From NCBI GenBank assembly GCA_009843785.1, contig VYCT01000283.1:1-57818 (forward strand): 57,818 nt of DNA, written 5' to 3'. The notes under the pieces are model-generated. The model was given only the letters and a program-made list of their open reading frames with translations. It had not been told where the DNA came from and did not search any database. The DNA comes from Candidatus Poribacteria bacterium (lineage in GTDB: Bacteria > Poribacteria > WGA-4E > WGA-3G). The translations under genes were made by a program, and so were the position numbers. Of the stretch, positions 1,994-50,858 are shown piece by piece; within the stretch, counting starts at the first letter, position 1; the number at the start of each line of letters is the position of its first letter.

Positions 1994-3940
1994 CTATTGC
2001 CATGAAACCTGGCTCATATCCCATAGCATAACCACACCATCTTCACTGATACTGGCAAGTATGTGTCCATCCGGACTGAACGCTAACGCCCGAACCCAAG
2101 TCGTATGCCCGGTGAGCGTAACTGTGCTTCGCTCAGTGAATGTGTCCCGCAAACGAATCACTTCATAACAGCCACTCGCGAGTATGCGTCCATCCGGACT
2201 AAAAGCAACGGATAAAACACTACTTTTTGTGGGTTCTTCAAAGGTATTCAGCAGTTTACCCGCTTCCACATCCCATAACCGCAGTGTGGCATCGTCACTA
2301 CCACTTGCAAGCACGGTTCCCCTTGGCGAAAATGCGACAGCAGCAACCGAATCCGTATGTCCGACAAGGGAATCTTTGAGTTTACCGGTGTGCACATCCC
2401 ATAACCGAATCACTTTTTCATCAGTTGCGCTGGCAATCGTCCCTCCATCGGGACTCAGCGACATGGCTCTGACACCCTGGCTTGGATCCAGTTCTGTAGT
2501 GTTCGCTATAATGATTTTCAAGGGTTTATCCGCACCAACATCCCAAATACGAATCGTATTGTCCCAACTCTCACTCATAAATGTCGCACCGTCCGGTGAA
2601 TAGACGATAGAAGGGACACCCTTCTCATGTCCGGTGATGGTTTTTTCGAGCTGCCCAGTCGCCACATCCCATAAACGAATATTACCGTCCCATTCCCCAC
2701 TCGCAAGCACGCTGCTATCTGGTGAGAACCGCACCGAATTAACAATGTCTGTATGCCCGGTGAGGATTTTCAGGAGTTGCCCACTCTGTACGTCGCGTAG
2801 CGAAATAGTATGGTCGGGCATCCCATTATACGCAAGCATCTCACCGTCTGGTGAAAATGCTATCGATCTCCCAAAAGAGCCGGTATGTCCGGTGATGGTC
2901 TTCAAGAGTTTGGCTGTCTCCACATCCCAAAAACGAATCGTTCCATCATAGTGACTCATACTCACAACGGTTTTTCCATCTGGCGCGTACATTACAGTAT
3001 TAACGCTATCCGTATGTCCGGTAAGGGTTTTCAAGGGTTCACCGGTACTCGCGTCCCAAAAGCGGATTGTCTTATCCCAACTGCCGCTCACAAGGGTCGT
3101 GCCATCTTGCGAGTAGGTCACAGAATCAACGCCAGATGTATGTCCAGTGAATGTTTTTAGGTGTTCTCCAGTGCCAACATCCCAAAGATAAATATTGGAA
3201 TCGCTACCGCCACCCACCAGGGATTGACCATCAGGCGAATATGCGACATTATAGATACGTTCCGGAAGCGCAGTGATCGTCTGCAGGCGTTGTCCTGTCT
3301 CCACATCCCAAATCCGAATTGTTCTGTCTTCCCAACCGCCACTCGCCAATCTCTTTCCATCGTCCGAATACGCGATAAAGTGGATAGACATAGAAAATGT
3401 GTTAAGATCTGTGTGCCCTATAAGGGTCTTTAACAACTTACCGGTGTGCCTATCCCAGAGTTGAATCGCATTGTTCCAAGTTGCGCCTGCAACTGTCTCG
3501 CCGGTAGGGCTGAATGCTAACGCACCGATTCTATTCGCGTCCCCTACAAGAACATTTTTCAATTTCCTTGCCTGCAAGTCCCATAAATAAACGCTGCCGT
3601 CACTTCCAACAGCAAGTGTCTCTCCATCGGGGCTGAGGTGCATATCTTCAGTGAAGGGTTCTGTGATGAGATCCAGTGCTTCACCCGTGCGGACATCGTA
3701 TATCCAAGTACCGATCGAGCTCAAAACGGCGAGACGGTTACCATCCGGCAAATAGACGCAATCGCTGAGCATCCCCTTCCCAAAACGCGCTTTCGCCTTT
3801 TCAGGCAATTCCCATTGTGTCCAATCTTTCACGGTTTCCTCCGTTTGCGGCTCTGCAACTGTTGCAGGCGCATCGTTAGGTTGCTGTTCAGGGGTATGAC
3901 GCTTACCCACTGCGTTGGTCCTTCCTATTTGTGTCCGCAC
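1994..3940 (-). CDS. WD40 beta-propeller, probably the detached C-terminal part of a sigma-propeller fusion
   Basis: About 648 codons. After a Pro/Thr-rich linker (residues 1-40) come the family signature WELPEKAKARFGKG and a long run of WD40 blades (repeats of SPDG..LASGS.D.TIRLWDV..GKLLKTLTGHT), enough for about two seven-bladed propellers. Unlike its two paralogues at 9831 and 11851 it has no signal peptide, and the GTG at 3940 has no clear ribosome site. The frame continues upstream (S-K-I-D) into the sigma factor frame if one copy of a 17-bp tandem duplication (3954-3987) is removed. As written, the propeller may be untranslated or made by reinitiation. Its expected role is an extracytoplasmic interaction or sensing platform. 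Confidence 0.8.
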   Translation of the reverse strand: MRTQIGRTNAVGKRHTPEQQPNDAPATVAEPQTEETVKDWTQWELPEKAKARFGKGMLSDCVYLPDGNRLAVLSSIGTWIYDVRTGEALDLITEPFTEDMHLSPDGETLAVGSDGSVYLWDLQARKLKNVLVGDANRIGALAFSPTGETVAGATWNNAIQLWDRHTGKLLKTLIGHTDLNTFSMSIHFIAYSDDGKRLASGGWEDRTIRIWDVETGQRLQTITALPERIYNVAYSPDGQSLVGGGSDSNIYLWDVGTGEHLKTFTGHTSGVDSVTYSQDGTTLVSGSWDKTIRFWDASTGEPLKTLTGHTDSVNTVMYAPDGKTVVSMSHYDGTIRFWDVETAKLLKTITGHTGSFGRSIAFSPDGEMLAYNGMPDHTISLRDVQSGQLLKILTGHTDIVNSVRFSPDSSVLASGEWDGNIRLWDVATGQLEKTITGHEKGVPSIVYSPDGATFMSESWDNTIRIWDVGADKPLKIIIANTTELDPSQGVRAMSLSPDGGTIASATDEKVIRLWDVHTGKLKDSLVGHTDSVAAVAFSPRGTVLASGSDDATLRLWDVEAGKLLNTFEEPTKSSVLSVAFSPDGRILASGCYEVIRLRDTFTERSTVTLTGHTTWVRALAFSPDGHILASISEDGVVMLWDMSQVSWQ

Positions 3941-3953
3941 ATCTATTTTTGAT

Positions 3954-3987
3954 TCGAGGTTCGCGACTATTCGAGGTTCGCGACTAT
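3954..3987. repeat. 17-bp tandem duplication causing a frameshift
   Basis: TCGAGGTTCGCGACTAT occurs twice back to back, at 3954-3970 and 3971-3987. Seventeen is not a multiple of three. With two copies the sigma factor frame ends at 3967. With one copy the frame runs on without a stop into the WD40 protein, giving 927 codons including the final stop. Replication slippage is the likely origin. Confidence 0.9.
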
Positions 3988-4791
3988 AGGTGTGTCAATG
4001 ATTTCAACCGTCATCTCCGAAGCGGCATCGAAACTATAAGGTTTCTGAAAACGCGTCAGGTATTGGTGGTTGCCAAAACCGAGCATGAGCAACACCGCTG
4101 CTAATGTGGACGCAGCAACTGTCCACGGCATTAATGGTTTGCTACTGAACGGCGCATCAAGTTTGACCCGTGAAACCTCGCGCATAACGGTTTCGGTAAG
4201 ATTCGGTGAGATTTGGAAATTCTCTAAAGCCTCTCTTATCATCGGCTCTTCTTTCTTTAAACGCTGTTGGGCACGGCGCAGCCGACTCTTAATCGTGTTA
4301 GCGGATACACCTAAGAACGCGCCGATCTCGGCACACGACATCTCCGCGAAGTAATGTAGCGTCATCACAGTGCGTTCGCTCTCCTCAAGTTTCGCAAGTA
4401 GTTTTTTGACGACCTCGCGTTGGGTTTCCATGGAGATGCGTTCGTTTTCTTCAACGGCATATTCGGAGTACGACGGTTTTTGGGGTTGTGCACCGCCCTT
4501 GTTTTTCAACAACTGCGCCCGAAAATGCTTTTTATGCAACCATGTGTTGCAGCGGTTTGTGGCAATCACATAAAGCCAACTTGCAAAACGCTGCGGCTTC
4601 TTCAGCGTTCGGAGTTTCTGATAGGCTTTCAGGAATGTATCCTGTGTAATCTCCTCGGCAATGTGAAAATCTCCGATTTTTCGCCACGCAAGCGCGTGCA
4701 CCTGTTTTTGATATTTTTTCACAAGTTCCGAAAAAGCGGTATCATCGCCGTTGAGAACACGCTGAATTAATTGTATATCACTGTTTTTCAT
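3967..4791 (-). CDS. ECF sigma factor with C-terminal membrane segment
   Basis: A 274-residue ECF sigma factor. Region 2 is at about residues 10-85 (DDTAFSELVKKYQ, then EEITQDTFLKAYQKL and FASWLYVIATNRC). Region 4 is at about 128-180 (LEESERTVMTLHYFAEMSCAEIGAFLGVSANTIKSRLRRAQQRL). A transmembrane helix follows at about 225-243 (MPWTVAASTLAAVLLMLGFG), then a short tail. The start has an excellent Shine-Dalgarno, GGAGGTGATC. The sigma-TM-tail arrangement, including QKPYSF and TVEIID, is shared with the sigma-propeller fusion at 47101. That supports the view that this gene should read on into the WD40 protein just downstream, placing the propeller outside the membrane and the sigma domains inside. 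No separate anti-sigma factor is nearby. Confidence 0.88.
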   Translation of the reverse strand: MKNSDIQLIQRVLNGDDTAFSELVKKYQKQVHALAWRKIGDFHIAEEITQDTFLKAYQKLRTLKKPQRFASWLYVIATNRCNTWLHKKHFRAQLLKNKGGAQPQKPSYSEYAVEENERISMETQREVVKKLLAKLEESERTVMTLHYFAEMSCAEIGAFLGVSANTIKSRLRRAQQRLKKEEPMIREALENFQISPNLTETVMREVSRVKLDAPFSSKPLMPWTVAASTLAAVLLMLGFGNHQYLTRFQKPYSFDAASEMTVEIIDTPIVANLE

Positions 4792-4808: not shown

Positions 4809-4842
4809 TTTCACCCTATAGTGACACCACGAAACGGTGAAA
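4809..4842. promoter_or_regulatory. hairpin in the 5' leader of the sigma factor gene
   Basis: TTTCACC (4809-4815) and GGTGAAA (4836-4842) form a perfect 7-bp inverted repeat 18-51 bp upstream of the sigma start codon. It could be an operator or an RNA hairpin close to the ribosome site; there is no further support. Confidence 0.3.
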
Positions 4843-4948
4843 TGGGTGCATAATTCTGCACCAATAGGCGTGTGTTTGGATAAAATAACGCAAGTTGCCA
4901 CCTATTTATCAAGGGACTTTAAGAAGCAGTGCGTAAGTCCTATCTATA

Positions 4949-6358
4949 TTACACCTCAACGCGCACAAACGCAAGATACGCTCCGGATAAAAGCAGAAGA
5001 AAAAATAGTGCCAACAACAGCAAATCTATCGCCGCCGTGTTGAAATCTTTACTAAAGTTGAGTGTATCTTCAAATGTGGGAACCGCTTCTGGACTGACGG
5101 GTTTCTCTGACATCCCTTCACGAACCCCAATGATATGGAGACTTTCTATATCCGCCTTATCAGTGTCAACAACGAACTCTCGATATTCACGGGCGTAAAC
5201 TTTCACATTCTCTAAGAATTGCAGGTGCCGCTCGAAACCCGTTCCAGCAAAGGATTCAAACAGGTGCTGAAAGATTGTGACAGGAGACAATCGGGTGGTG
5301 GCGCGTGCTCGGTTCACTTGCGAAATCTGTTGTTTTAAGCGTGCCTCCTGCAACTGTTCCTGCTGTTCAGCGTCTTTAGAGACGTACGCACCATCCACCT
5401 CTATCCTTTTTCTTGAATCTCCGCGCGCCTGCCGCCAACGAGACCCGTATTGATCCCGAAGTTCATTATGCAGTTGCCAAGAACGTTCATAAAATCCGTG
5501 AGTCGCCTTGGGTGATGCGGAATCCCCCGCAATTGCAGCGAGCGTACCCGGCATAAAAACGACGAGAGAGACCCAAACCAATAGGAGGATCACCAGACTC
5601 ACCGCGCTCCGTTGCACACGCGCTGAAACGAGCAGCCCTAACGCCAGAAAAAGACACGTGTAAAGCAGCGCAATACAAAAGATGATGCCCAACCGCCCCC
5701 ATGCCTCAGCATTGAGGTGGACATCGCTTGATGTCGAAATCACCAAAAGGTTCATCAATATCGCAAGTGTAAACGGAATGTTAAGACTGATCAATGCACC
5801 TAAAAACTTGCCAATCAGGACGGTGTGACGCGGGATGGCATTTGCCAATATTAACCGCAGGGTCCCACGTTCACGTTCACCAGAGATTGAATCAAAGGTA
5901 AACAGTAATGCGATCAGACTCAAAACGTAACCGATGATAAAACTCCAATCCACCAAGGTAACGTCTGGACGTAAATTCCCCAGACTCGTATCAACTGGCG
6001 GATATGCAAGTATCCAGGCACTTTCTAATCTGTCAGTGCTCCAACGAAAGGTGCCCCCTATCGCTTGCCTCGGTAAATCAGTTTCACTACCTTCTGCACA
6101 GAAACGGAGTGCCGACGGCTTTTTGTAAAGATCTCCAGGTCCCTTTTGGGCGAGTCTATACAAGCTCTCATCCGCAGAAGCCATTAAGTGATTCTGGTAT
6201 TCGGTGACCCCATCGTTATATGCCTGTATCCGCTTCGGGTGTTCATGGAGATGCACGACAGCGTTGGTCAGCATCAAGCCGATCAGCAACACGATCGCAA
6301 GTGCAAACCGAAGGCTGTTGAGATTATCGTAGAGTTCACGTTTTGCGATATGCCACAT
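4949..6358 (-). CDS. ABC-2 type transporter permease (DUF3526-like architecture)
   Basis: A 469-residue integral membrane protein. An N-terminal helix (about 15-35) leads into a large extracytoplasmic loop, then a group of helices (about 135-285) including the ABC-2 signature SGERERGTLRLILANAIPRHTVLIGKFLGA, a second large polar loop (about 290-430), and a last helix near the C-terminus. It is a paralogue of the next gene upstream (6529-8034), so the two probably form a heterodimeric export permease. The ATP-binding subunit is missing from the neighbourhood and must be supplied elsewhere. The substrate is unknown. Its last codons overlap a half-copy of the TGCGTAAGTCCT repeat also seen at 16345. 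Confidence 0.85.
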   Translation of the reverse strand: MWHIAKRELYDNLNSLRFALAIVLLIGLMLTNAVVHLHEHPKRIQAYNDGVTEYQNHLMASADESLYRLAQKGPGDLYKKPSALRFCAEGSETDLPRQAIGGTFRWSTDRLESAWILAYPPVDTSLGNLRPDVTLVDWSFIIGYVLSLIALLFTFDSISGERERGTLRLILANAIPRHTVLIGKFLGALISLNIPFTLAILMNLLVISTSSDVHLNAEAWGRLGIIFCIALLYTCLFLALGLLVSARVQRSAVSLVILLLVWVSLVVFMPGTLAAIAGDSASPKATHGFYERSWQLHNELRDQYGSRWRQARGDSRKRIEVDGAYVSKDAEQQEQLQEARLKQQISQVNRARATTRLSPVTIFQHLFESFAGTGFERHLQFLENVKVYAREYREFVVDTDKADIESLHIIGVREGMSEKPVSPEAVPTFEDTLNFSKDFNTAAIDLLLLALFFLLLLSGAYLAFVRVEV

Positions 6359-6528
6359 AAGTCACCAGTAACCAGTTAACAGTTTTCAGACTCCGCAGTA
6401 AAGAGGTTAACATCTTCCTCACCTCTCCTATGGTAGATTTTAGAATCATCTATACATTATAAGTAACCGGTTACCAGTTACCGGATGTATCCTTTCTGGC
6501 AACTGGACACTGGCAACTGTTAACTACT
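6359..6528. repeat. degenerate AACCAGTTAACAG-type intergenic repeats
   Basis: The 170-bp gap between the two permease genes is built from variants of ACCAGTTAACAGTT, AACCGGTTACCAGTTACCGG and GGCAACTGGACACTGGCAACTG. The same kind of CAGTTATCAGT-like simple repeat recurs at 39902-40060 and 42133-42240, so it is a dispersed repeat of this genome rather than a gene. Confidence 0.5.
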
Positions 6529-8034
6529 TCACACTTCACTCTTGACGAAAATCAGAAATATTATGATGAACAGGACTCCATTAATCATGAGCAGTAAAGA
6601 TACATCCGGCAGTGCGCGTTTGGCATTTATATGGGTATCGACTCTTTGAAAAGAGAATTGTGGAAAGCTTCCCCAATCCGGCGCGCCCTTGTCCGCAGAA
6701 AACCACTCACGAGATCCAAATACATCTTTATCGTAGAGGTAGGTAATCACTTGACGTCTGTATTGTCTCACAGCGTCGAAAAAATCTCTGGTGCCGAGCA
6801 TATCCGTGCCTGCCCATGCTTGAGTTGCAGCATCATATAATCCAATAGGCGAGAGTTTCAACCAGGCTCTCTCCACTTTCGCGGGTTTAACAAAGATATC
6901 CTCTAATGCGGGTTTTCGGATGAGCCACGTTCGGTCTGCTGTATCCGTAACCAACCGACCGAGGAAACGGAAATGATGCTGCGCGTGAGGGATCTTGGGT
7001 TCATCTTCCTCACCAAGTGTTTCAAAATCTATGACACTTTCATAGGTATACAGTAGCGTCCGAGGGGTGTTCCAAAGGTAAGCATGACGGGATCCGCCTC
7101 CCCTGAGTTCAAGACCCCAATCTTCCCCTGGGAAAGCGTCAGTGGCAAGGAAGTGTTTCCGCGCTCTGTCAAATTCCTCCCATATCTGTTCAATTTGATT
7201 GAAGGCGGATGCCGTGCGCGGCTGTGGTGCCTCGAGACGGCGGATCACAGCAAGCGTTACGTTTGGATAGACCAGCACTAAAAATCCCCAGACGAACATA
7301 GAGAGCATCAATGCAGTACTCGTTCGACGCATCGCCGCCGAAATCAGCATGCCAATGAAGTAAAACACCGACAGATACGCAACAGATGCGAAAATAATTC
7401 CACCGATGCGCAGAAAATCATGCGTATTTAGCGAAATAGCAGCGGAATTCGTTAGTAAAATCACAGCCAGGAGAAGGCTCATCAGCAACGGCACCAGCAG
7501 ACAGAGCATCGCACTGATGTATTTCGCAAGCAGGATATGCCCACGACGCACCGGGTTAGTCAAGACTAAACGTAATGTCCCTCGCTCGTGCTCTCCGGCG
7601 AGGACATCGTAGGCGAAAATTAGTGCCAACAGGCTTAGCACAACCTCAAAGATAAAGACAATATCCATGGATGTGAAAATGTTCATAAACGGATTATCCG
7701 AACCGTGCCTGTCAGCATCCCACAGCGACGGCACATATCCGTGTGCTACCTTAACCTCGTTTCCGGGTCGCTTGTCGAATCCGACATTGAAAATGCTTAA
7801 AGGGTTCGGTGGACGGTCAACGTACACTTCACCTGCTGAATAAGTATTCGTCTCTTGAAGTTGCCGCTGATGCATTTTAACAGCAGCGTTGTAGCCTGCC
7901 AAGCGTCGCTCATAGTCCTTAATAAGCACAGCCGTATTTGTAACCACAAGCAACAGTGTAATGAAAACGGCTGCCGCGAAGCGAAACGTCATCAGGTTGT
8001 CAAGTAGTTCTCTACGGATGAGTGTTGTCAACAT
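6529..8034 (-). CDS. ABC-2 type transporter permease, paralogue of the neighbour
   Basis: A 501-residue permease with the same layout as the 4949-6358 product: an N-terminal helix, a large polar loop, a block of helices with AGEHERGTLRLVLTNPVRRGHILLAKYISAM, a second large polar loop and a C-terminal helix (VSLLLMINGVLFIIIFLIFV). I chose the ATG at 8034 because MLTTLIRRELLDNLMTFRFA aligns with the start of the paralogue (MWHIAKRELYDNLNSLRFA); the frame is open 13 codons further upstream. The two genes are 170 bp apart on the same strand and are probably cotranscribed. No ABC ATPase is adjacent. The transported substrate cannot be inferred. Confidence 0.85.
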   Translation of the reverse strand: MLTTLIRRELLDNLMTFRFAAAVFITLLLVVTNTAVLIKDYERRLAGYNAAVKMHQRQLQETNTYSAGEVYVDRPPNPLSIFNVGFDKRPGNEVKVAHGYVPSLWDADRHGSDNPFMNIFTSMDIVFIFEVVLSLLALIFAYDVLAGEHERGTLRLVLTNPVRRGHILLAKYISAMLCLLVPLLMSLLLAVILLTNSAAISLNTHDFLRIGGIIFASVAYLSVFYFIGMLISAAMRRTSTALMLSMFVWGFLVLVYPNVTLAVIRRLEAPQPRTASAFNQIEQIWEEFDRARKHFLATDAFPGEDWGLELRGGGSRHAYLWNTPRTLLYTYESVIDFETLGEEDEPKIPHAQHHFRFLGRLVTDTADRTWLIRKPALEDIFVKPAKVERAWLKLSPIGLYDAATQAWAGTDMLGTRDFFDAVRQYRRQVITYLYDKDVFGSREWFSADKGAPDWGSFPQFSFQRVDTHINAKRALPDVSLLLMINGVLFIIIFLIFVKSEV

Positions 8035-8173
8035 CAAGTTTACCTTACTACCGATTCTGCTCTTTTTCAGCAAATACAGAACGCTTTTACTGATGTAGGC
8101 TCAAATTTTGCGAATAAATCTCACAGTACCTATGTAACCTTTCATCAGTGCAATTCCCAATTTTGCGTCCGCC

Positions 8174-33591: not shown

Positions 33592-33664
33592 ATGGGTATA
33601 TAGGATCCAGACGCGTTTCTCTATAAATGCGTAGCAAAAATAAATTTCATTTTTTTTTACATTT

Positions 33665-33697
33665 TGCACGTTTTCCGATTTAAAAAAGCCTCTTTAA
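33665..33697 (+). promoter_or_regulatory. TGCACG-N20-TCTTTAA promoter-like motif, copy A
   Basis: TGCACG at 33665-33670 and TCTTTAA at 33691-33697, 20 bp apart, in an AT-rich context 50-82 bp upstream of the first PqqD-glycosyltransferase gene. The same two boxes with identical spacing occur at 46892 and 50087. The spacing would fit an ECF-type promoter. Confidence 0.6.
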
Positions 33698-33746
33698 GAA
33701 CAGGAATCGGAAGTTTCATTAAAAAACGGAAAGGTAAAAATAAAAG

Positions 33747-35462
33747 ATGCTTGGTTTTCCGAAAATATTGCACCAGCTTCATCTCTTTGAAGAAGATAGT
33801 GTCCCCTATGTCGCCGACCTCGACAAAGCACGCGTCATCGAACTCTCGGCTGTGATGATGGACATCCTAAAACTCGCAGAAACGCAAACCGATGATGCAA
33901 TCGTCGAAACGCTGAGTGCTTCTTATGAAGAAGACGACATCTCTGAGGCGTTTGAAAGATTCGCCGAGCTTGAAAGAGAAGGTTTACTGTTCAACCGCGG
34001 TGAGGATTTGGAGAGGAGTCTCGCGACGGAGAGCAAATGGCGAAAGCTGCTGGTTGTGATACCCGGTATCAATCCGGATTCGTTTTTTGATATTGAGACA
34101 CTATCTGCCGGTACCAACATGGCACTCGCTTATATGATTCGACATCTCACCAAGTATGCTGATTTGCATTTTGCGGGTTCTCGGAACAGGAAGATCGCAG
34201 ACGGAGTATATGAAGTCGATATCAGTATTGATGACTTGGTCCGTCTTCGGTCAAAAATCGCGGAGACCTACTACGGCATCCTAACCTTGCATCAAGAGCA
34301 TGAGCGGTGGCTCCTTCCACTCTACCGGTACCCTGAATTCCCGCCGATTCTCGTTCAGAATCACGCGCCCCGCGGACACGGTGGGCAGGCGATCAATTCG
34401 ATGCTGCGGCACTATGCGGCGATGCGGGATTGTGACGGTTTCACAGCACCTTCGGATTACGTCCGTGATTTTTATGCGGGTTATGTCTGGGATCCGAGTT
34501 TCTTCAATACCTTGCCGAACGGTGTTGATTCAAGGTTGTTCTGTCCGATGGATAAAGCCGCAGCGAAACGCGAAATTGCTGAATGGGTCGGAGACGAACG
34601 GATTGAGATCGCACCGACTGTCGGTTATCTCTCGCGGGTGCAGTCGGAGAAAGGGGCATCCGTCTATTTGAAGTTGGCGGCGTTGAACCCGCATCTGATT
34701 TTTATGATTGCGGGGCCGGATATGGGAAGGTATGCGTCCCGTGAGGTTCCTAAGAACCTTGTGTATGTGGGTTTCCATCCGCGTGAGAAGTTGCCGCTGA
34801 TCTACAATGCGTTTGATGTCTACTGTTTTCCGTCGATGTCGGGTGAGGAGACGTTTGGACTAACGGTGCTGGAGGCGATGGCATGTGCTGTGCCGCCTGT
34901 GGTTCCGAATTTTGATGGTGTCCCTTCGGTTGTCGGGGATGCGGGGCTGGTCGCGGATGCTGATAATTTTGATCAAGACATCGCGACACTTGTGAGTTAC
35001 CCATGTCCGATGAGTTTTTCGGAGAAGATTAATACGTTGTTAAACAATACACAGGTGTGGGAAACGTTCTCGGAGAAGGCGAGACAACGGGCACTCTTGT
35101 TCACTTGGGATAAGACGGCACGCCGAATTGTACAGTTATTTGAGATGCTGCGTCAAAAGAAGAAGTTAATCAATCGAAACAGGCTCCTGAATGTGTTCGC
35201 ACCGGCACAACCGGTAGAAGGTGAAGCACCAGAGAGAGAGAAATGTAGGTCGGTTTTGCTGAGTATGAATACCCATTACGAGCGGTGTCTGATGCGGGAT
35301 GCAGTGTATCCGCTGCCTGTTGAGGATGGACTGGTACTGAGTATCTTGAAAAACCATACCACCAGAGAAGCAGAGTCAATTCTTGCCGAACTGGTTACGG
35401 ATGAGACGGAAGCGCGGGCGATTCTTAAAAGGGTTCGCGGTCTAATCAATGCGACGGCGTGA
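33747..35462 (+). CDS. PqqD-like domain fused to GT4-type glycosyltransferase (1)
   Basis: A 571-residue cytoplasmic protein. Residues 1-85 (PYVADLDKARVIELSAVMMDILKLAET, then EAFERFAELEREGLLFN) have the strand-strand-helix-helix pattern of PqqD/RRE domains that bind RiPP leader peptides. Residues about 90-470 are a GT-B glycosyltransferase; the GT4 signature SGEETFGLTVLEAMACAVPPVVPNFDGVPSVVGDAG is intact with its donor-binding Glu. The last 90 residues are an extension with a small helical domain (LVLSILKNHTTREAESILAELV) shared with the next GT and the chimera at 50151. Family knowledge predicts sugar transfer; inference is that it glycosylates the nearby Cys-rich precursors recognised through the PqqD domain. 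The ATG follows GGAAAGG. Confidence 0.85.
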   Translation: MLGFPKILHQLHLFEEDSVPYVADLDKARVIELSAVMMDILKLAETQTDDAIVETLSASYEEDDISEAFERFAELEREGLLFNRGEDLERSLATESKWRKLLVVIPGINPDSFFDIETLSAGTNMALAYMIRHLTKYADLHFAGSRNRKIADGVYEVDISIDDLVRLRSKIAETYYGILTLHQEHERWLLPLYRYPEFPPILVQNHAPRGHGGQAINSMLRHYAAMRDCDGFTAPSDYVRDFYAGYVWDPSFFNTLPNGVDSRLFCPMDKAAAKREIAEWVGDERIEIAPTVGYLSRVQSEKGASVYLKLAALNPHLIFMIAGPDMGRYASREVPKNLVYVGFHPREKLPLIYNAFDVYCFPSMSGEETFGLTVLEAMACAVPPVVPNFDGVPSVVGDAGLVADADNFDQDIATLVSYPCPMSFSEKINTLLNNTQVWETFSEKARQRALLFTWDKTARRIVQLFEMLRQKKKLINRNRLLNVFAPAQPVEGEAPEREKCRSVLLSMNTHYERCLMRDAVYPLPVEDGLVLSILKNHTTREAESILAELVTDETEARAILKRVRGLINATA

Positions 35463-46838: not shown

Positions 46839-46891
46839 AAAACACAAATTTGAACTAACTTCTTTAGATGCCTCTATTTTTTTGCATATTA

Positions 46892-46924
46892 TGCACGTTT
46901 TTTGCCGAAAATTAGGGTCTTTAA
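46892..46924 (+). promoter_or_regulatory. TGCACG-N20-TCTTTAA promoter-like motif, copy B
   Basis: TGCACG at 46892-46897 and TCTTTAA at 46918-46924, 20 bp apart, in a T-rich context about 177 bp upstream of the sigma-propeller gene start at 47101. Same boxes and spacing as at 33665 and 50087. Confidence 0.55.
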
Positions 46925-47100
46925 AAAGAGAAACAATCAGATGATTCAAATTTAAGAATTTCGGTTTGCTATTGTGTATGGTATACTCTTAACGAGAAAA
47001 GAAAAATCTATCTTATACCGACACAGGGCAAGTTACTTCAAGGAATAGCGTCTTATTTTCAATCATTTAGGTCTATTCGTTGATGATGGAGAATCTAATC

Positions 47101-50052
47101 ATGGAAAATGATGCACAATTGATCTACAGAGTTTTATCAGGCGACGATGAAGCGTTTACTGCGTTGGTCCGAAAACATCAACAAAGTGTTCACGCACTTG
47201 CTTGGCGGCGGGTTGGCGATTTTCATTTTGCCGAAGAAATTACGCAGGACACCTTCCTTCAAGCATATAAGAAACTCTCAACGCTCAAGAACCCGAGTCA
47301 GTTTTCTGGGTGGCTTTATGTCATTGCGAATCGACGTTGTAATAAGTGGCTCCTAAAGAACAAATCCGCAGTAAAATCGCTGGAGGATGTCTCCATGGTA
47401 GAAATAGAGAACACCTTTTATGAACGTTATGTATCGGAGCAAAACGAAGAGCAAGCTCACACGCATCGCCGCAAACTCGTTAGGAAACTTCTGGACAAAT
47501 TGCCAGAGAGCGAACGCACGGTCATGACGCTCTACTATCTCGGCGAAATGACAACGAAGGAGATTAGTAAGTTTCTGGGAGTATCGGTCAACACGATTAC
47601 GAGTCGGCTTCAGCGGGCGCGAAAGCGTTTACAACAGGAGGAGGAGTTCTTGATTCAAGAAACACTCGGGGGTATCCAATTATCTAATAGCCTTACGGAA
47701 GACATCGCTCGGAAAGTTGCGGATGTGCGGTTGACACCACCTGCAAATTGGAAACCTTTTATACCGTGGATGGCTCTTGGTACGGCAGCGGTTTTGGTGA
47801 TGCTGCTGCTAAGTGCGAGCAATCAATACTTTTTGCGTTTCCAGAAGCCGTATAGTTTTGAGGCAGAATCTGAACGGACGGTTGAGATTATTGACGCACT
47901 TGTCGTTCTTAAGAGTGAGGCGAAACCGGCAGTGCGAAATCAAGCAGGGCGCGCTGCCGCGACCAATAAAAACGGCGGTGATGGTGTGCAGGTTTCGGCA
48001 TCAGTTTTAGCTTCTAATGCAGAGGACGAGTTGGTCAGAACTTCGACATCGCGGTGGACACAGACATCTGGACCGCAAGGGAGTCCTGTCTTTGATGTAT
48101 TTACTACATCTGGGGGTGCGCTTCTCGCCTTCTCACAGACAGGGTTTTACAAATTCACAGCCAACGCGACTGTGTGGATGCCTGTTGAAATTGATGTTTC
48201 GACCGGAACGTTGCGGGCCCCTATGACAGAGCATGCCGGGGTGTTTTACCTTGTCTCTAACGATGCAGTGTTTGCCTCGACCAATGATGGCGAGACATGG
48301 AACGCGTTTTGCACCCGGCCCAATGGAAATGCTGTTGGACTTGTTATCGTGAGTGAAATGCAGCAAACGGATAGGACAATGTATCTTGCCCTTGAAAATA
48401 AAGGTGTGTTCCGTTCTACAGATGCCGGAGAACAGTGGGTACTTCTTGACGATGGATTGATGGGCAAGACGATTTCTAAGGTGGCTGCCGTTGGGAACAC
48501 AGTATTTGCTGGCACAGACAGCGGGCTCTATCGTCTTGATGCGGACGTTGGCGTTTGGGAACGACTGCTTGAGGGTGTGTCCGGATCTATTTACGCTTTA
48601 GCGGTTTCTGAGGATAGTCTTTATGTCAGCACAGGTCCTAATTTTCGGATGTTGCAACAGATTGGATCAAAGCCTGGAAAAATAGCGCAGGCAATACATA
48701 ACGACAATTCAAATTTGAGTAGAATTTTTCACTCCGCTGACTTAGGATCGTCTTGGACTGAGATAACGCCTACAAACGGATCTCGCCCTATCAAATCAAT
48801 AACTGGTATAAGTTTGTTGGTTGCTGGTAAGACGATCTTAGCACAAGCCGGTAGGCAGTTCCGGTCAAGGGATAACGGACAGACTTGGGTCGATCTTGGG
48901 TTTGGCACGAATTCGCATATACTTAATGGTTTTTCGTCTGTAGCGGTCAACGAGAACACATTTTACAAAGTAGGGATATTCGGTATTCATCGGACGACTG
49001 ATGGCGGCGAATCGTGGCATCTGTTTATGGATGGGATAGTGGGAACTGGGGTCTTGGATTTGGTTCAGGTCAATAACTGGTTCTATGCACACACTAATAC
49101 GGACATTGTCCTATCGACAGATAGTGGTGAATCGTGGAGTCCTGTTCGCGTTAAAACTAATGGCGTTAATTCTAAACTACTCAATAGAAAAGACTCTCAC
49201 CCTAATTTCTCTGGTCATTCATGGTTAGCGATTGCTGATAATGCCTTTTATGTCATTACGCCGGAAAGAGAGAATTTGCACGTCCTTCGTTTGTCAGATG
49301 ACGGCAAGGCACTTATTCCGATTCATGGGGTTCCCGCTTTTGAAGTGGATGTCCCGTCCACAAATAATAGGAACGCCGAACGGAGGCAGTTATCTGAGAG
49401 ACTTGAAAAGGGCGATGACTTGGGAGACACATTGTGGGGTAGAGAAGATGAAATAATTGGGGCGTTTGCTGTCAGTGGTGAAACGTTTTACACGGAGTAT
49501 CAGCGAAAATTGTTCAAATGGCAACTCGGCGATGCAGAATGGAAAGACACAGGGTTGGCGGATACAGGCGAGCAGTCTGATGGTGATTTGAAATATGGGT
49601 TTCGATTAGCGGCTTCAGGAGAGACCCTCTACGTCGGCAAACGGGATGGCAGATTGTTCCAATCGCTGGATGCGGGAAGCAGTTGGAAGGACATTACGCC
49701 GAACCTTCCACGTCGGCTTACCTGTTTCAAGGAGATTGTCTTTGCTGGTTCGAGGGTTTACGTCGCGACAGACACGGGTATCTTAGCCTCACAAACCGGT
49801 CTACACTGGCGCGTCATCGCCGATGAAGTCGTTATAGACAGGCTTGCTGTGGACGGCACCACGATTTACGGTGCCGGCGATACAGGGGCCTATCGTTTGG
49901 ATGTTCATGACAAGTGGGAACAGATTTCGCCGGTAGTGCCGGGTAAGGTGCTTTCGCTCGTTGTTGATCGCAATAGACTTTATGTTGCCACGGAGCGACG
50001 TGGGATATTTCATATCTTGCTTGAGGAAAATAAAGACTTGGTAAATCATTAA
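47101..50052 (+). CDS. ECF sigma factor fused through a membrane helix to a BNR/YCF48-like propeller
   Basis: A 983-residue protein. Sigma region 2 is at about residues 5-80 (AEEITQDTFLQAYKKL, FSGWLYVIANRRC). Region 4 is at about 125-185 (PESERTVMTLYYLGEMTTKEISKFLGVSVNTITSRLQRARKRLQ). A transmembrane helix is at about 225-243 (PWMALGTAAVLVMLLLSAS). A 700-residue propeller of BNR/photosystem-stability-factor repeats follows (STNDGETWNAF, RSTDAGEQWVLLDDG, RTTDGGESWHLFMDG, QSLDAGSSWKDITP). So the sigma part is cytoplasmic and the propeller extracytoplasmic: a one-protein sensor/transcription switch without a separate anti-sigma. I chose the ATG at 47101 because it aligns with the sigma gene at 4791 and has GGAG upstream; it could begin 7 codons earlier. 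Confidence 0.87.
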   Translation: MENDAQLIYRVLSGDDEAFTALVRKHQQSVHALAWRRVGDFHFAEEITQDTFLQAYKKLSTLKNPSQFSGWLYVIANRRCNKWLLKNKSAVKSLEDVSMVEIENTFYERYVSEQNEEQAHTHRRKLVRKLLDKLPESERTVMTLYYLGEMTTKEISKFLGVSVNTITSRLQRARKRLQQEEEFLIQETLGGIQLSNSLTEDIARKVADVRLTPPANWKPFIPWMALGTAAVLVMLLLSASNQYFLRFQKPYSFEAESERTVEIIDALVVLKSEAKPAVRNQAGRAAATNKNGGDGVQVSASVLASNAEDELVRTSTSRWTQTSGPQGSPVFDVFTTSGGALLAFSQTGFYKFTANATVWMPVEIDVSTGTLRAPMTEHAGVFYLVSNDAVFASTNDGETWNAFCTRPNGNAVGLVIVSEMQQTDRTMYLALENKGVFRSTDAGEQWVLLDDGLMGKTISKVAAVGNTVFAGTDSGLYRLDADVGVWERLLEGVSGSIYALAVSEDSLYVSTGPNFRMLQQIGSKPGKIAQAIHNDNSNLSRIFHSADLGSSWTEITPTNGSRPIKSITGISLLVAGKTILAQAGRQFRSRDNGQTWVDLGFGTNSHILNGFSSVAVNENTFYKVGIFGIHRTTDGGESWHLFMDGIVGTGVLDLVQVNNWFYAHTNTDIVLSTDSGESWSPVRVKTNGVNSKLLNRKDSHPNFSGHSWLAIADNAFYVITPERENLHVLRLSDDGKALIPIHGVPAFEVDVPSTNNRNAERRQLSERLEKGDDLGDTLWGREDEIIGAFAVSGETFYTEYQRKLFKWQLGDAEWKDTGLADTGEQSDGDLKYGFRLAASGETLYVGKRDGRLFQSLDAGSSWKDITPNLPRRLTCFKEIVFAGSRVYVATDTGILASQTGLHWRVIADEVVIDRLAVDGTTIYGAGDTGAYRLDVHDKWEQISPVVPGKVLSLVVDRNRLYVATERRGIFHILLEENKDLVNH

Positions 50053-50086
50053 ATATGACAATTTTGCTGCAATTTTTGTCATGTTT

Positions 50087-50119
50087 TGCACGAAAACCAC
50101 CAAAAAATTTGGTCTTTAA
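50087..50119 (+). promoter_or_regulatory. TGCACG-N20-TCTTTAA promoter-like motif, copy C
   Basis: TGCACG at 50087-50092 and TCTTTAA at 50113-50119, 20 bp apart, ending 31 bp before the GTG start of the chimeric gene at 50151. The position right after the sigma-propeller gene suggests a target of that sigma factor. Confidence 0.6.
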
Positions 50120-50150
50120 GTGTTATACATTACGAAAGAAGGAGACTTGT

Positions 50151-50858
50151 GTGAAAAAATACATATTGCTGCTGCTTTTCTTAACCGCTATCGTCGTCGG
50201 TCCGTTTGCTTATCAGCGGTGGAGTGAGGCGAAAAGGTTACGGCACATCAGAGAAACAAAACAAACTGCTGCACAGATTCATGCGACACCTTTGAAGGGT
50301 TTTCTGCAACAATTGGATCAGGCTTCGCCACACCAAACAGGGCTCGTGCTTTTCACTGGTAACACACAGGCACATCTCGAACCGTGTGGTTGTTTCATCG
50401 GTCAGTCGGGCGGTTTACCAAGACGTGCGACTGCGATTTCGAGTATCAAGGATAAAGGGTTCTCACCCCTATTAGTCGATCTCGGCGGGTTTCTTCCAGT
50501 TGAAGGTGAAAGAGAGAAACTCAGCATAGCAGCGAGAGAGGTCGCGATATCTTACACGTGGGATTCGACTGTCAGGCAGATTCTCAATCGCTTCAGGGAA
50601 AGTCAAAAAAAAAGAATGATCAATCACAGGCTCGCAGATCCATTGTCGTTTACGAAACATTACAATCGTGCGCGAGGAACGCTTGAGTTTCAGGCTCGTG
50701 ACTTACTTGATGGTTCTCCGATATATGATATCGAAAAAGCGATTGCGATGACGCTTTGGAATACGCATACGCCTAAAGAGATGGAAGCATTACTCTCGCA
50801 TCTCTGCCAAGACGCGGGGCGAGTCAAACGAATTATGACAGAAATGCATGAAACTTAA
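50151..50858 (+). CDS. chimeric gene: cytochrome-fusion N-terminus joined to glycosyltransferase C-terminus
   Basis: A 235-residue product from a GTG with GAAGGAG upstream. Residues 1 to about 115 match the N-terminus of the 42305 protein: signal anchor, QRWSEAKRL against SQWSESRRI, and AHLEPCGC with QSGGLPRRA. From about residue 120 (REKLSIAAREVAISYTWDSTVRQILNRF) to the end it matches the C-terminus of the PqqD-glycosyltransferase at 33747 (ARQRALLFTWDKTARRIVQLF and the final helical domain). Haem sites, thioredoxin domain, PqqD domain and the catalytic GT core are all missing. It is probably the scar of a deletion between tandem cluster copies and is unlikely to keep either activity. Confidence 0.85.
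   Translation: MKKYILLLLFLTAIVVGPFAYQRWSEAKRLRHIRETKQTAAQIHATPLKGFLQQLDQASPHQTGLVLFTGNTQAHLEPCGCFIGQSGGLPRRATAISSIKDKGFSPLLVDLGGFLPVEGEREKLSIAAREVAISYTWDSTVRQILNRFRESQKKRMINHRLADPLSFTKHYNRARGTLEFQARDLLDGSPIYDIEKAIAMTLWNTHTPKEMEALLSHLCQDAGRVKRIMTEMHET

Follow-up and report, generated by a model that had tools for sequence, protein, structure and literature searches.

A stretch of 57,818 nucleotides from Candidatus Poribacteria bacterium (contig VYCT01000283.1; the whole stretch is hereafter the window) carries at 47101-50052 a gene whose product is, in our judgement, likely to be a membrane-tethered sigma factor of the extracytoplasmic function (ECF) class that serves as its own receptor. It would consist of cytoplasmic sigma regions 2 and 4 (sigma2 and sigma4), a linker without recognisable anti-sigma domain, one transmembrane (TM) helix, a flexible stalk, and an exchangeable head; it would be autoregulated, and a ligand would trigger its proteolytic release. 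At the level of sequence, comparison of this gene with its relatives establishes the architecture of the chain, its topology signals, the repeated exchange of the head, and the presence before the window gene of an ECF-type promoter that covaries with the sigma. The family looks like a large unstudied group of one-piece receptors in sponge symbionts, each copy apparently switching on its own gene.

Architecture, topology and exchange of the sensor head

The open reading frame (ORF) of the window gene has 983 codons from the ATG at 47101 or 990 from a TTG at 47080, with further possible ATG starts at 47083/47086. Pfam recognises Sigma70_r2 (E 7.5e-13) and Sigma70_r4_2 (E 8.8e-17) in its product, with sigma3 and sigma1.1 absent, which is the layout of an ECF (group IV) sigma factor; the protein scores 98.7 bits to NCBIfam TIGR02937, and SigW, SigH, and sigma-E are the closest solved chains to its N-terminal part. 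A single hydrophobic helix (Kyte-Doolittle hydropathy, KD, 2.08 in 47758-47814) separates these domains from propeller matches of the Sortilin-Vps10 and PSII_BNR/YCF48 types. Neither Pfam nor the linker alignment revealed a zinc-finger or other anti-sigma domain, and none of the zf-HC2 matches of the source genome falls within a gene of the family; a fused anti-sigma domain was discarded on these grounds. In an AlphaFold2 (AF2) model built from 66 aligned relatives, the sigma part and the head are confident, with a predicted local distance difference test (pLDDT) mostly of 80-90, a short helix is placed at residues 198-208, and residues 241-316 are without structure. Every segment is under purifying selection, with ratios of non-synonymous to synonymous substitution rates (dN/dS) of 0.11-0.21 in the sigma part, 0.12-0.17 in the juxtamembrane stretch, and 0.25-0.37 in the propeller. 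Domains, single helix, open frame, and selection thus bear out the one-piece sigma-TM-sensor gene that an earlier note on this DNA had described at this place.

The orientation of the chain can be judged from 240 family members. The helix exceeds a KD of 1.6 in 99.6% of them (mean 2.15), lysines and arginines (K/R) number on average 3.2 before it vs 1.9 after it, being more frequent on the sigma side in 81% of the members and less frequent in 5%, and the head is poor in cysteine, at about a quarter of the frequency seen in the sigma part. One head (L042) is a C-type lectin, a fold that is extracytoplasmic in other systems. These signals fit a sigma factor inside the cell and a head outside, as the earlier note had proposed for the propeller.

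The two sigma genes of the window had also been noted to share the stretch QKPYSF...TVEIID next to the helix. This conservation extends to 36 paralogues of the same genome, in which Q-x-P-Y is invariant, the motif FQKPYSF-x-A-x-SE-x-T is nearly fixed, and the part from sigma to juxtamembrane stretch has a mean column identity of 62%. A structured domain is unsupported here, since the AF2 model gives the stretch no fold (pLDDT ~25). It is under strong purifying selection though predicted to be disordered, a combination expected of a linear recognition site, and we infer that it may be one.

Behind this constant module the heads have been exchanged many times. A tree of 130 sigma domains shows 29 changes of head type, where types were set by motif counts and length and the classes 'short' and 'other' are mixed; its well supported branches by themselves require that the Asp-box label changed at least 15 times and the WD40 label at least 6 times. 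Heads confirmed by Pfam comprise Asp-box, WD40, Kelch, LRR, Reg_prop (L117), C-type lectin, and M16-like domains. Intact sigma-TM-WD40 frames exist in the paralogues L022, L025, L034, L043, L045, L049, and L057, and the swap of propeller type suspected from the two window genes is therefore real. A Foldseek search with the model of the window protein placed the tandem propellers of GH74 nearest to its head (E 2.7e-21; TM-score, by target, 0.59 to 2CN2); its nearest solved relatives are GH74 xyloglucanases and Ycf48, and hybrid two-component systems of Bacteroides were also matched, through their extracytoplasmic sensor domains.

Promoters and the sigma residues that covary with them

The genes of the family tend to be preceded by a common promoter with the consensus ATTATGCA(C/A)C-N2-TTT, a gap of 8-9 nt, and G-(C/T)-GTC-(A/T)-(T/C)-TA (in short form ATTATGCAMC...G-Y-GTC). 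By computation it has the marks of ECF promoters, which are usually autoregulated: an AAC-like -35 core and a CGTC-like -10. With a cut-off of more than 15 bits on a position weight matrix (PWM), a score reached by 0.2% of Markov shuffles, the promoter was found upstream of 31 of the 38 members in the source genome, 73 of 122 non-redundant members, and 67 of 72 new members; close copies of the promoter of the window gene lie upstream of relatives in L064, L068, and L069. A search of the genome at two mismatches or fewer gave 67 sites, vs 12 for a reversed-pattern control, and 33 of the 67 are directly upstream of a sigma gene where 0.27 would be expected. The others precede genes for secreted proteins, a C-type lectin (L155), a laminin-G/ConA-like lectin (L180), Reg_prop propellers (L159, L173), ABC-2 permeases (e.g., L158), and ABC ATPases. 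A looser pattern without fixed spacing proved too weak (54/130 vs 22.6 in shuffles) and was abandoned.

The bases of each promoter were then compared, gene by gene, with the residues of the sigma encoded by the same gene. The -35 bases pair best with sigma4 residues 152, 164, 167, 168, and 171 and the -10 bases with sigma2.4 residues 82 and 85; position by position, -35 positions 6-10 go best with 152, 167, or 171 and -10 positions 1-4 with 82 or 85. We take residue 167 to be the equivalent of R171 of Escherichia coli sigma-E, a -35 contact. In the first set of genes, K167 occurs with C at -35 position 9 in 36/36 cases and T167 with G in 10/11, R85 occurs with C in 36/42, and K, R, or M at residue 82 is mostly found with A (Met82 in 3/3), other residues at 82 being found with G in 47/48. 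A second set of 67 genes, none more than 95% identical to the first, repeats the pattern: K167 with C (50/50), R85 with C (62/63), M82 with A (13/13), and Y171 with A (22/22). Phylogenetically independent pairs give covariation in the same direction, apart from stray random pairing. Shared descent does not readily account for such domain-specific pairing, which therefore argues for autoregulation by working sigma factors. The window sigma is most likely competent to bind DNA and to activate its own gene, and the paralogues have most likely diverged in promoter specificity. The covariation also provides residue-to-base rules for ECF promoters (e.g., K167-C and T167-G at one -35 base). These rules are open to testing in E. 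coli, with no need to cultivate the host, and would be useful for the design of orthogonal sigma factors.

ABC-2 permeases at 4949-8073 (minus strand) lie upstream of the second sigma gene of the window, and family-type promoters precede similar permeases in L158, L167, and L178, which suggests a link between the family sigmas and ABC export. A glycosyltransferase gene that starts at 33747 (region 33663-35462) has a tentative promoter of the window-sigma type (TGCACG; Table 1) ~50 nt upstream, and a similar-looking glycosyltransferase gene in L174 (G000:C93) is preceded by two family-type promoters.

Proposed release of the sigma and competing explanations

In the mechanism that we propose, the head would bind an extracellular ligand, a host or envelope glycan or protein, and binding would make the stalk accessible to a site-1 protease, after which an RseP-type protease would free the sigma; the sigma would drive its own gene together with a set of genes for secreted proteins, lectins, propellers, and ABC transporters that have the same type of promoter. 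Release of the RseP type, as for IutY of Pseudomonas putida, is plausible. The source genome encodes S41/Prc-type proteases and an RseP-like M50 protease, whose gene adjoins a dxr-like gene (its domains were read from the sequence by us). The earlier note had thought of the nearby A24 aspartyl proteases as releasing enzymes; these turned out to be unlinked to the family, with no A24-like frame near the sigma genes in 63 loci of the source genome and with 4 in 90 foreign loci, all four being loci of the closest relatives of the window gene.

Given the architecture, we lean with some confidence towards proteolytic release over a sigma that works from the membrane in the manner of ToxR or CadC, with the ligand altering its orientation or oligomeric state without any proteolysis. 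The latter is possible, if rather unlikely: the family has no linked gene for a dedicated protease (A24 having been examined), its short linker carries no recognised anti-sigma domain, autoregulation and covariation fit a tethered sigma equally well, and the selected juxtamembrane motif could be a coupling element instead of a cleavage site. What tells against it is that IutY, the nearest tested one-piece case, is freed by Prc and RseP (PMC8999054), that proteases of both types are present in the genome, and that a tether hinders a sigma, which has to accompany RNA polymerase to scattered promoters. Several observations weigh against our own account. A recognisable promoter is missing in 7 of the 38 members of the source genome and in several near relatives of the window gene elsewhere; ~12 of the 67 genomic sites are expected by chance from the reversed-pattern control; most single covariation tests have fewer than 6 informative independent pairs, too few to reach p 0.05 by themselves; and the RseP-like and S41 proteases are generic and unlinked to the family, the release step being one that we infer.

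The remaining explanations would do away with autoregulation, with the receptor, or with the membrane. A duplication can take a gene's upstream DNA along with it, and several copies of the family are indeed in tandem clusters (e.g., G018:C1 around 4396-4424 kb), so the shared promoters could be a legacy of common descent read by another sigma; this is very unlikely, because the covariation is specific to the domain (-35 with sigma4, -10 with sigma2.4), falls on recognition-helix positions, and recurs in the new genes, whereas one outside sigma would not track the residues of each gene's own sigma. Equally little speaks for a head that is a membrane-anchored catalytic glycosidase of the GH74 type, with a sigma part that is vestigial or an adaptor. 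GH74 xyloglucanases are the best fold matches and GH74 is reported to be an abundant CAZy family in Poribacteria genomes (PMC6081418), of whose GH74 calls the heads of the sigma-receptors may account for a part. Yet the likeness to these enzymes (2CN2, 5FKR, 6P2M) is one of tandem Asp-box propeller fold, at a weak sequence identity of ~15%; the Asp-box residue D857 is the sole invariant acidic residue of the head across 66 sequences, with no invariant acid beyond the Asp-boxes when these are compared by sequence; unrelated folds replace the head; and the covariation requires a working sigma, which rules out a vestigial one. Finally, the hydrophobic segment could be buried in a cytoplasmic protein whose propeller is an interaction platform, as proposed for the ECF57 WD40 sigmas of Planctomycetes. 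Beside this precedent, the same genome has ~18 sibling sigmas with C-terminal extensions but no membrane helix, two of them with Asp-box propellers. We nevertheless find the idea scarcely credible, given the single helix that recurs at a constant site in 240 members with K/R unequal on its two sides, its position in the AF2 model between disordered stretches and not inside a fold, and lectin, Reg_prop, and GH74-like heads that are extracytoplasmic elsewhere.

Family spread, the second sigma gene and known systems

The source genome has 78 sigma-region-2 matches and 41 matches to a profile of the linker, TM helix, and juxtamembrane stretch, which amounts to about 40 sigma genes with the TM module. 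A search of the whole phylum found mostly 8-65 copies per genome in the genera g1 and g20 (one genome has 2), 1-2 in two other genera of the same family, 0-3 in sister families, and none in other classes; all named relatives returned were Candidatus Poribacteria. We think it somewhat probable that two sponge-associated genera of Poribacteria use a repertoire of tens of one-piece sigma-receptors without anti-sigma factors, which exchange eukaryote-like heads (propellers, Kelch, LRR, lectin) and have each a partly private, coevolving promoter code. If so, every paralogue would be an independent self-amplifying circuit that couples an outside ligand to a regulon, either private or overlapping. 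We know of no cultured member of the phylum, and our search of the literature, of incomplete coverage, found no account of Poribacteria sigma factors.

The helix-less siblings include other fusions. Two are joined to the beta sliding clamp of DNA polymerase III (L026, G000:C299 near 18168; L044, G000:C179 near 4097), the one in L044 having all three clamp domains (TIGR00663, 213 bits) in a genome that also encodes three stand-alone clamps; they bring to mind T4 late transcription, where the sigma gp55 works with the clamp gp45. Others, also without membrane helix, carry an AhpC/TSA redoxin (L027, L052) or a PD40/S9 prolyl oligopeptidase (L011).

Table 1. Features of the window (coordinates of the whole stretch).
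Feature	Position	Strand	Basis
One-piece sigma-TM-propeller gene, 983 aa	47101..50052	+	ORF, Pfam, hydropathy, dN/dS
Sigma region 2, residues 22-88, including -10 recognition positions 82 and 85	47164..47364	+	Pfam; -10 covariation
Sigma region 4, residues 126-177; recognition helix with positions 164, 167, 171	47476..47631	+	Pfam; -35 covariation
Cytoplasmic linker from sigma4 to membrane, ~39 aa, short helix 198-208	47641..47757	+	Pfam, linker alignment, AF2
Transmembrane helix, residues 220-240	47758..47820	+	Hydropathy; AF2 helix 226-239, low confidence
Conserved extracytoplasmic juxtamembrane stretch (NQYFLRFQKPYSFEAESERTVEIIDA...), predicted disordered	47821..47955	+	Alignment, AF2, dN/dS
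Asp-box tandem beta-propeller head; best solved folds GH74 xyloglucanases	48055..50025	+	Pfam, AF2, Foldseek
-35 block of predicted ECF promoter (ATTATGCACGTTTTTT)	46888..46903	+	PWM 37.4 bits
-10 block (TAGGGTCTTTAAAA), 9 nt gap, ends ~175 nt before ATG 47101	46913..46926	+	PWM
Predicted ECF promoter of second sigma gene (ATTATGCACCCATTTC...TGGTGTCACTATAG)	4816..4854	-	PWM 34.9 bits
Second sigma-TM-juxtamembrane frame, 274 aa, severed from its propeller	3967..4791	-	Pfam, hydropathy, frame analysis
WD40 propeller frame, 648 aa, continuation of second sigma gene in another frame	1994..3940	-	Pfam, frame analysis
Perfect 17-bp tandem duplication shifting frame between sigma-TM and WD40 parts	3954..3987	-	Sequence comparison
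Tentative window-sigma-type promoter (TTTGCACG...CTCTTTA, 3 mismatches)	33663..33696	+	Pattern match, weak

The earlier note had taken both sigma genes of the window for one-piece sensors. This holds for the gene at 47101-50052 and fails for the second one as assembled, which yields a sigma-TM protein without propeller: an exact tandem duplication (identical copies at 3954-3970 and 3971-3987) puts its sigma-TM and WD40 parts in different frames, by either a recent frameshift or an assembly error. Another copy in the source genome (L014) has a stop codon immediately after the helix; this stop and the break in the second gene may reflect decay, assembly error, or variation. The gene at 50055-50858 is probably broken in this assembly, because just a 143-aa part of it matches (92%) a 694-aa cytochrome c554/DSBA-like protein whose gene immediately follows the orthologous sigma gene in L064, and the remainder of the frame has no match to that protein.

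In normal ECF signalling, a sigma factor is controlled by a separate membrane anti-sigma factor; the Poribacteria chain seems to unite both roles without a recognisable anti-sigma domain, and its sensor end has been exchanged many times. Chains of sigma, TM helix, and sensor and WD40-bearing sigmas are already known, and the Poribacteria family is a variation on them. IutY (ECF243) is likewise an ECF sigma with a C-terminal membrane-bound extension, which acts in siderophore cell-surface signalling and is activated through regulated intramembrane proteolysis (PMC8999054), but its extension is a fused anti-sigma, whereas the window protein has no FecR-type or other anti-sigma match in Pfam and a linker of ~39 aa, and its family has propeller, LRR, or lectin heads and tens of paralogues per genome. 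ECF48, ECF52 (SCO4117), and ECF53 of Actinobacteria, of which ECF52 ends in a carbohydrate-binding domain (PMC8999054), resemble the window protein in having sigma, helix, and extracytoplasmic part in one chain; they differ in that their one or two helices are preceded by a zinc-finger anti-sigma domain, the H-x3-C-x2-C of which is missing from the Poribacteria linker alignment, and head exchange is a feature of the Poribacteria family. ECF57 and other WD40-bearing ECF sigmas of Planctomycetes, recovered in detergent-soluble fractions (PMC8567305), share a WD40 extension with some paralogues; in contrast, the window gene has an Asp-box head, heads of the family are not WD40 only, the helix and juxtamembrane motif are common to the whole family, and the cysteine pair linking sigma2 to sigma4 is absent, C87 (A1) alone being near-invariant and none lying in sigma4. 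In function, the family resembles the Bacteroides hybrid two-component receptors (BT4663, BT4673, BT3049), which are also one-piece membrane proteins with a large extracytoplasmic propeller and whose sensor domains are among the fold matches, and Reg_prop heads occur in the family as well; the output there is a kinase and response regulator and here would be a sigma factor. With up to ~65 copies per genome and such a range of heads, these sigma-receptors look like a system dedicated to sensing the sponge environment.

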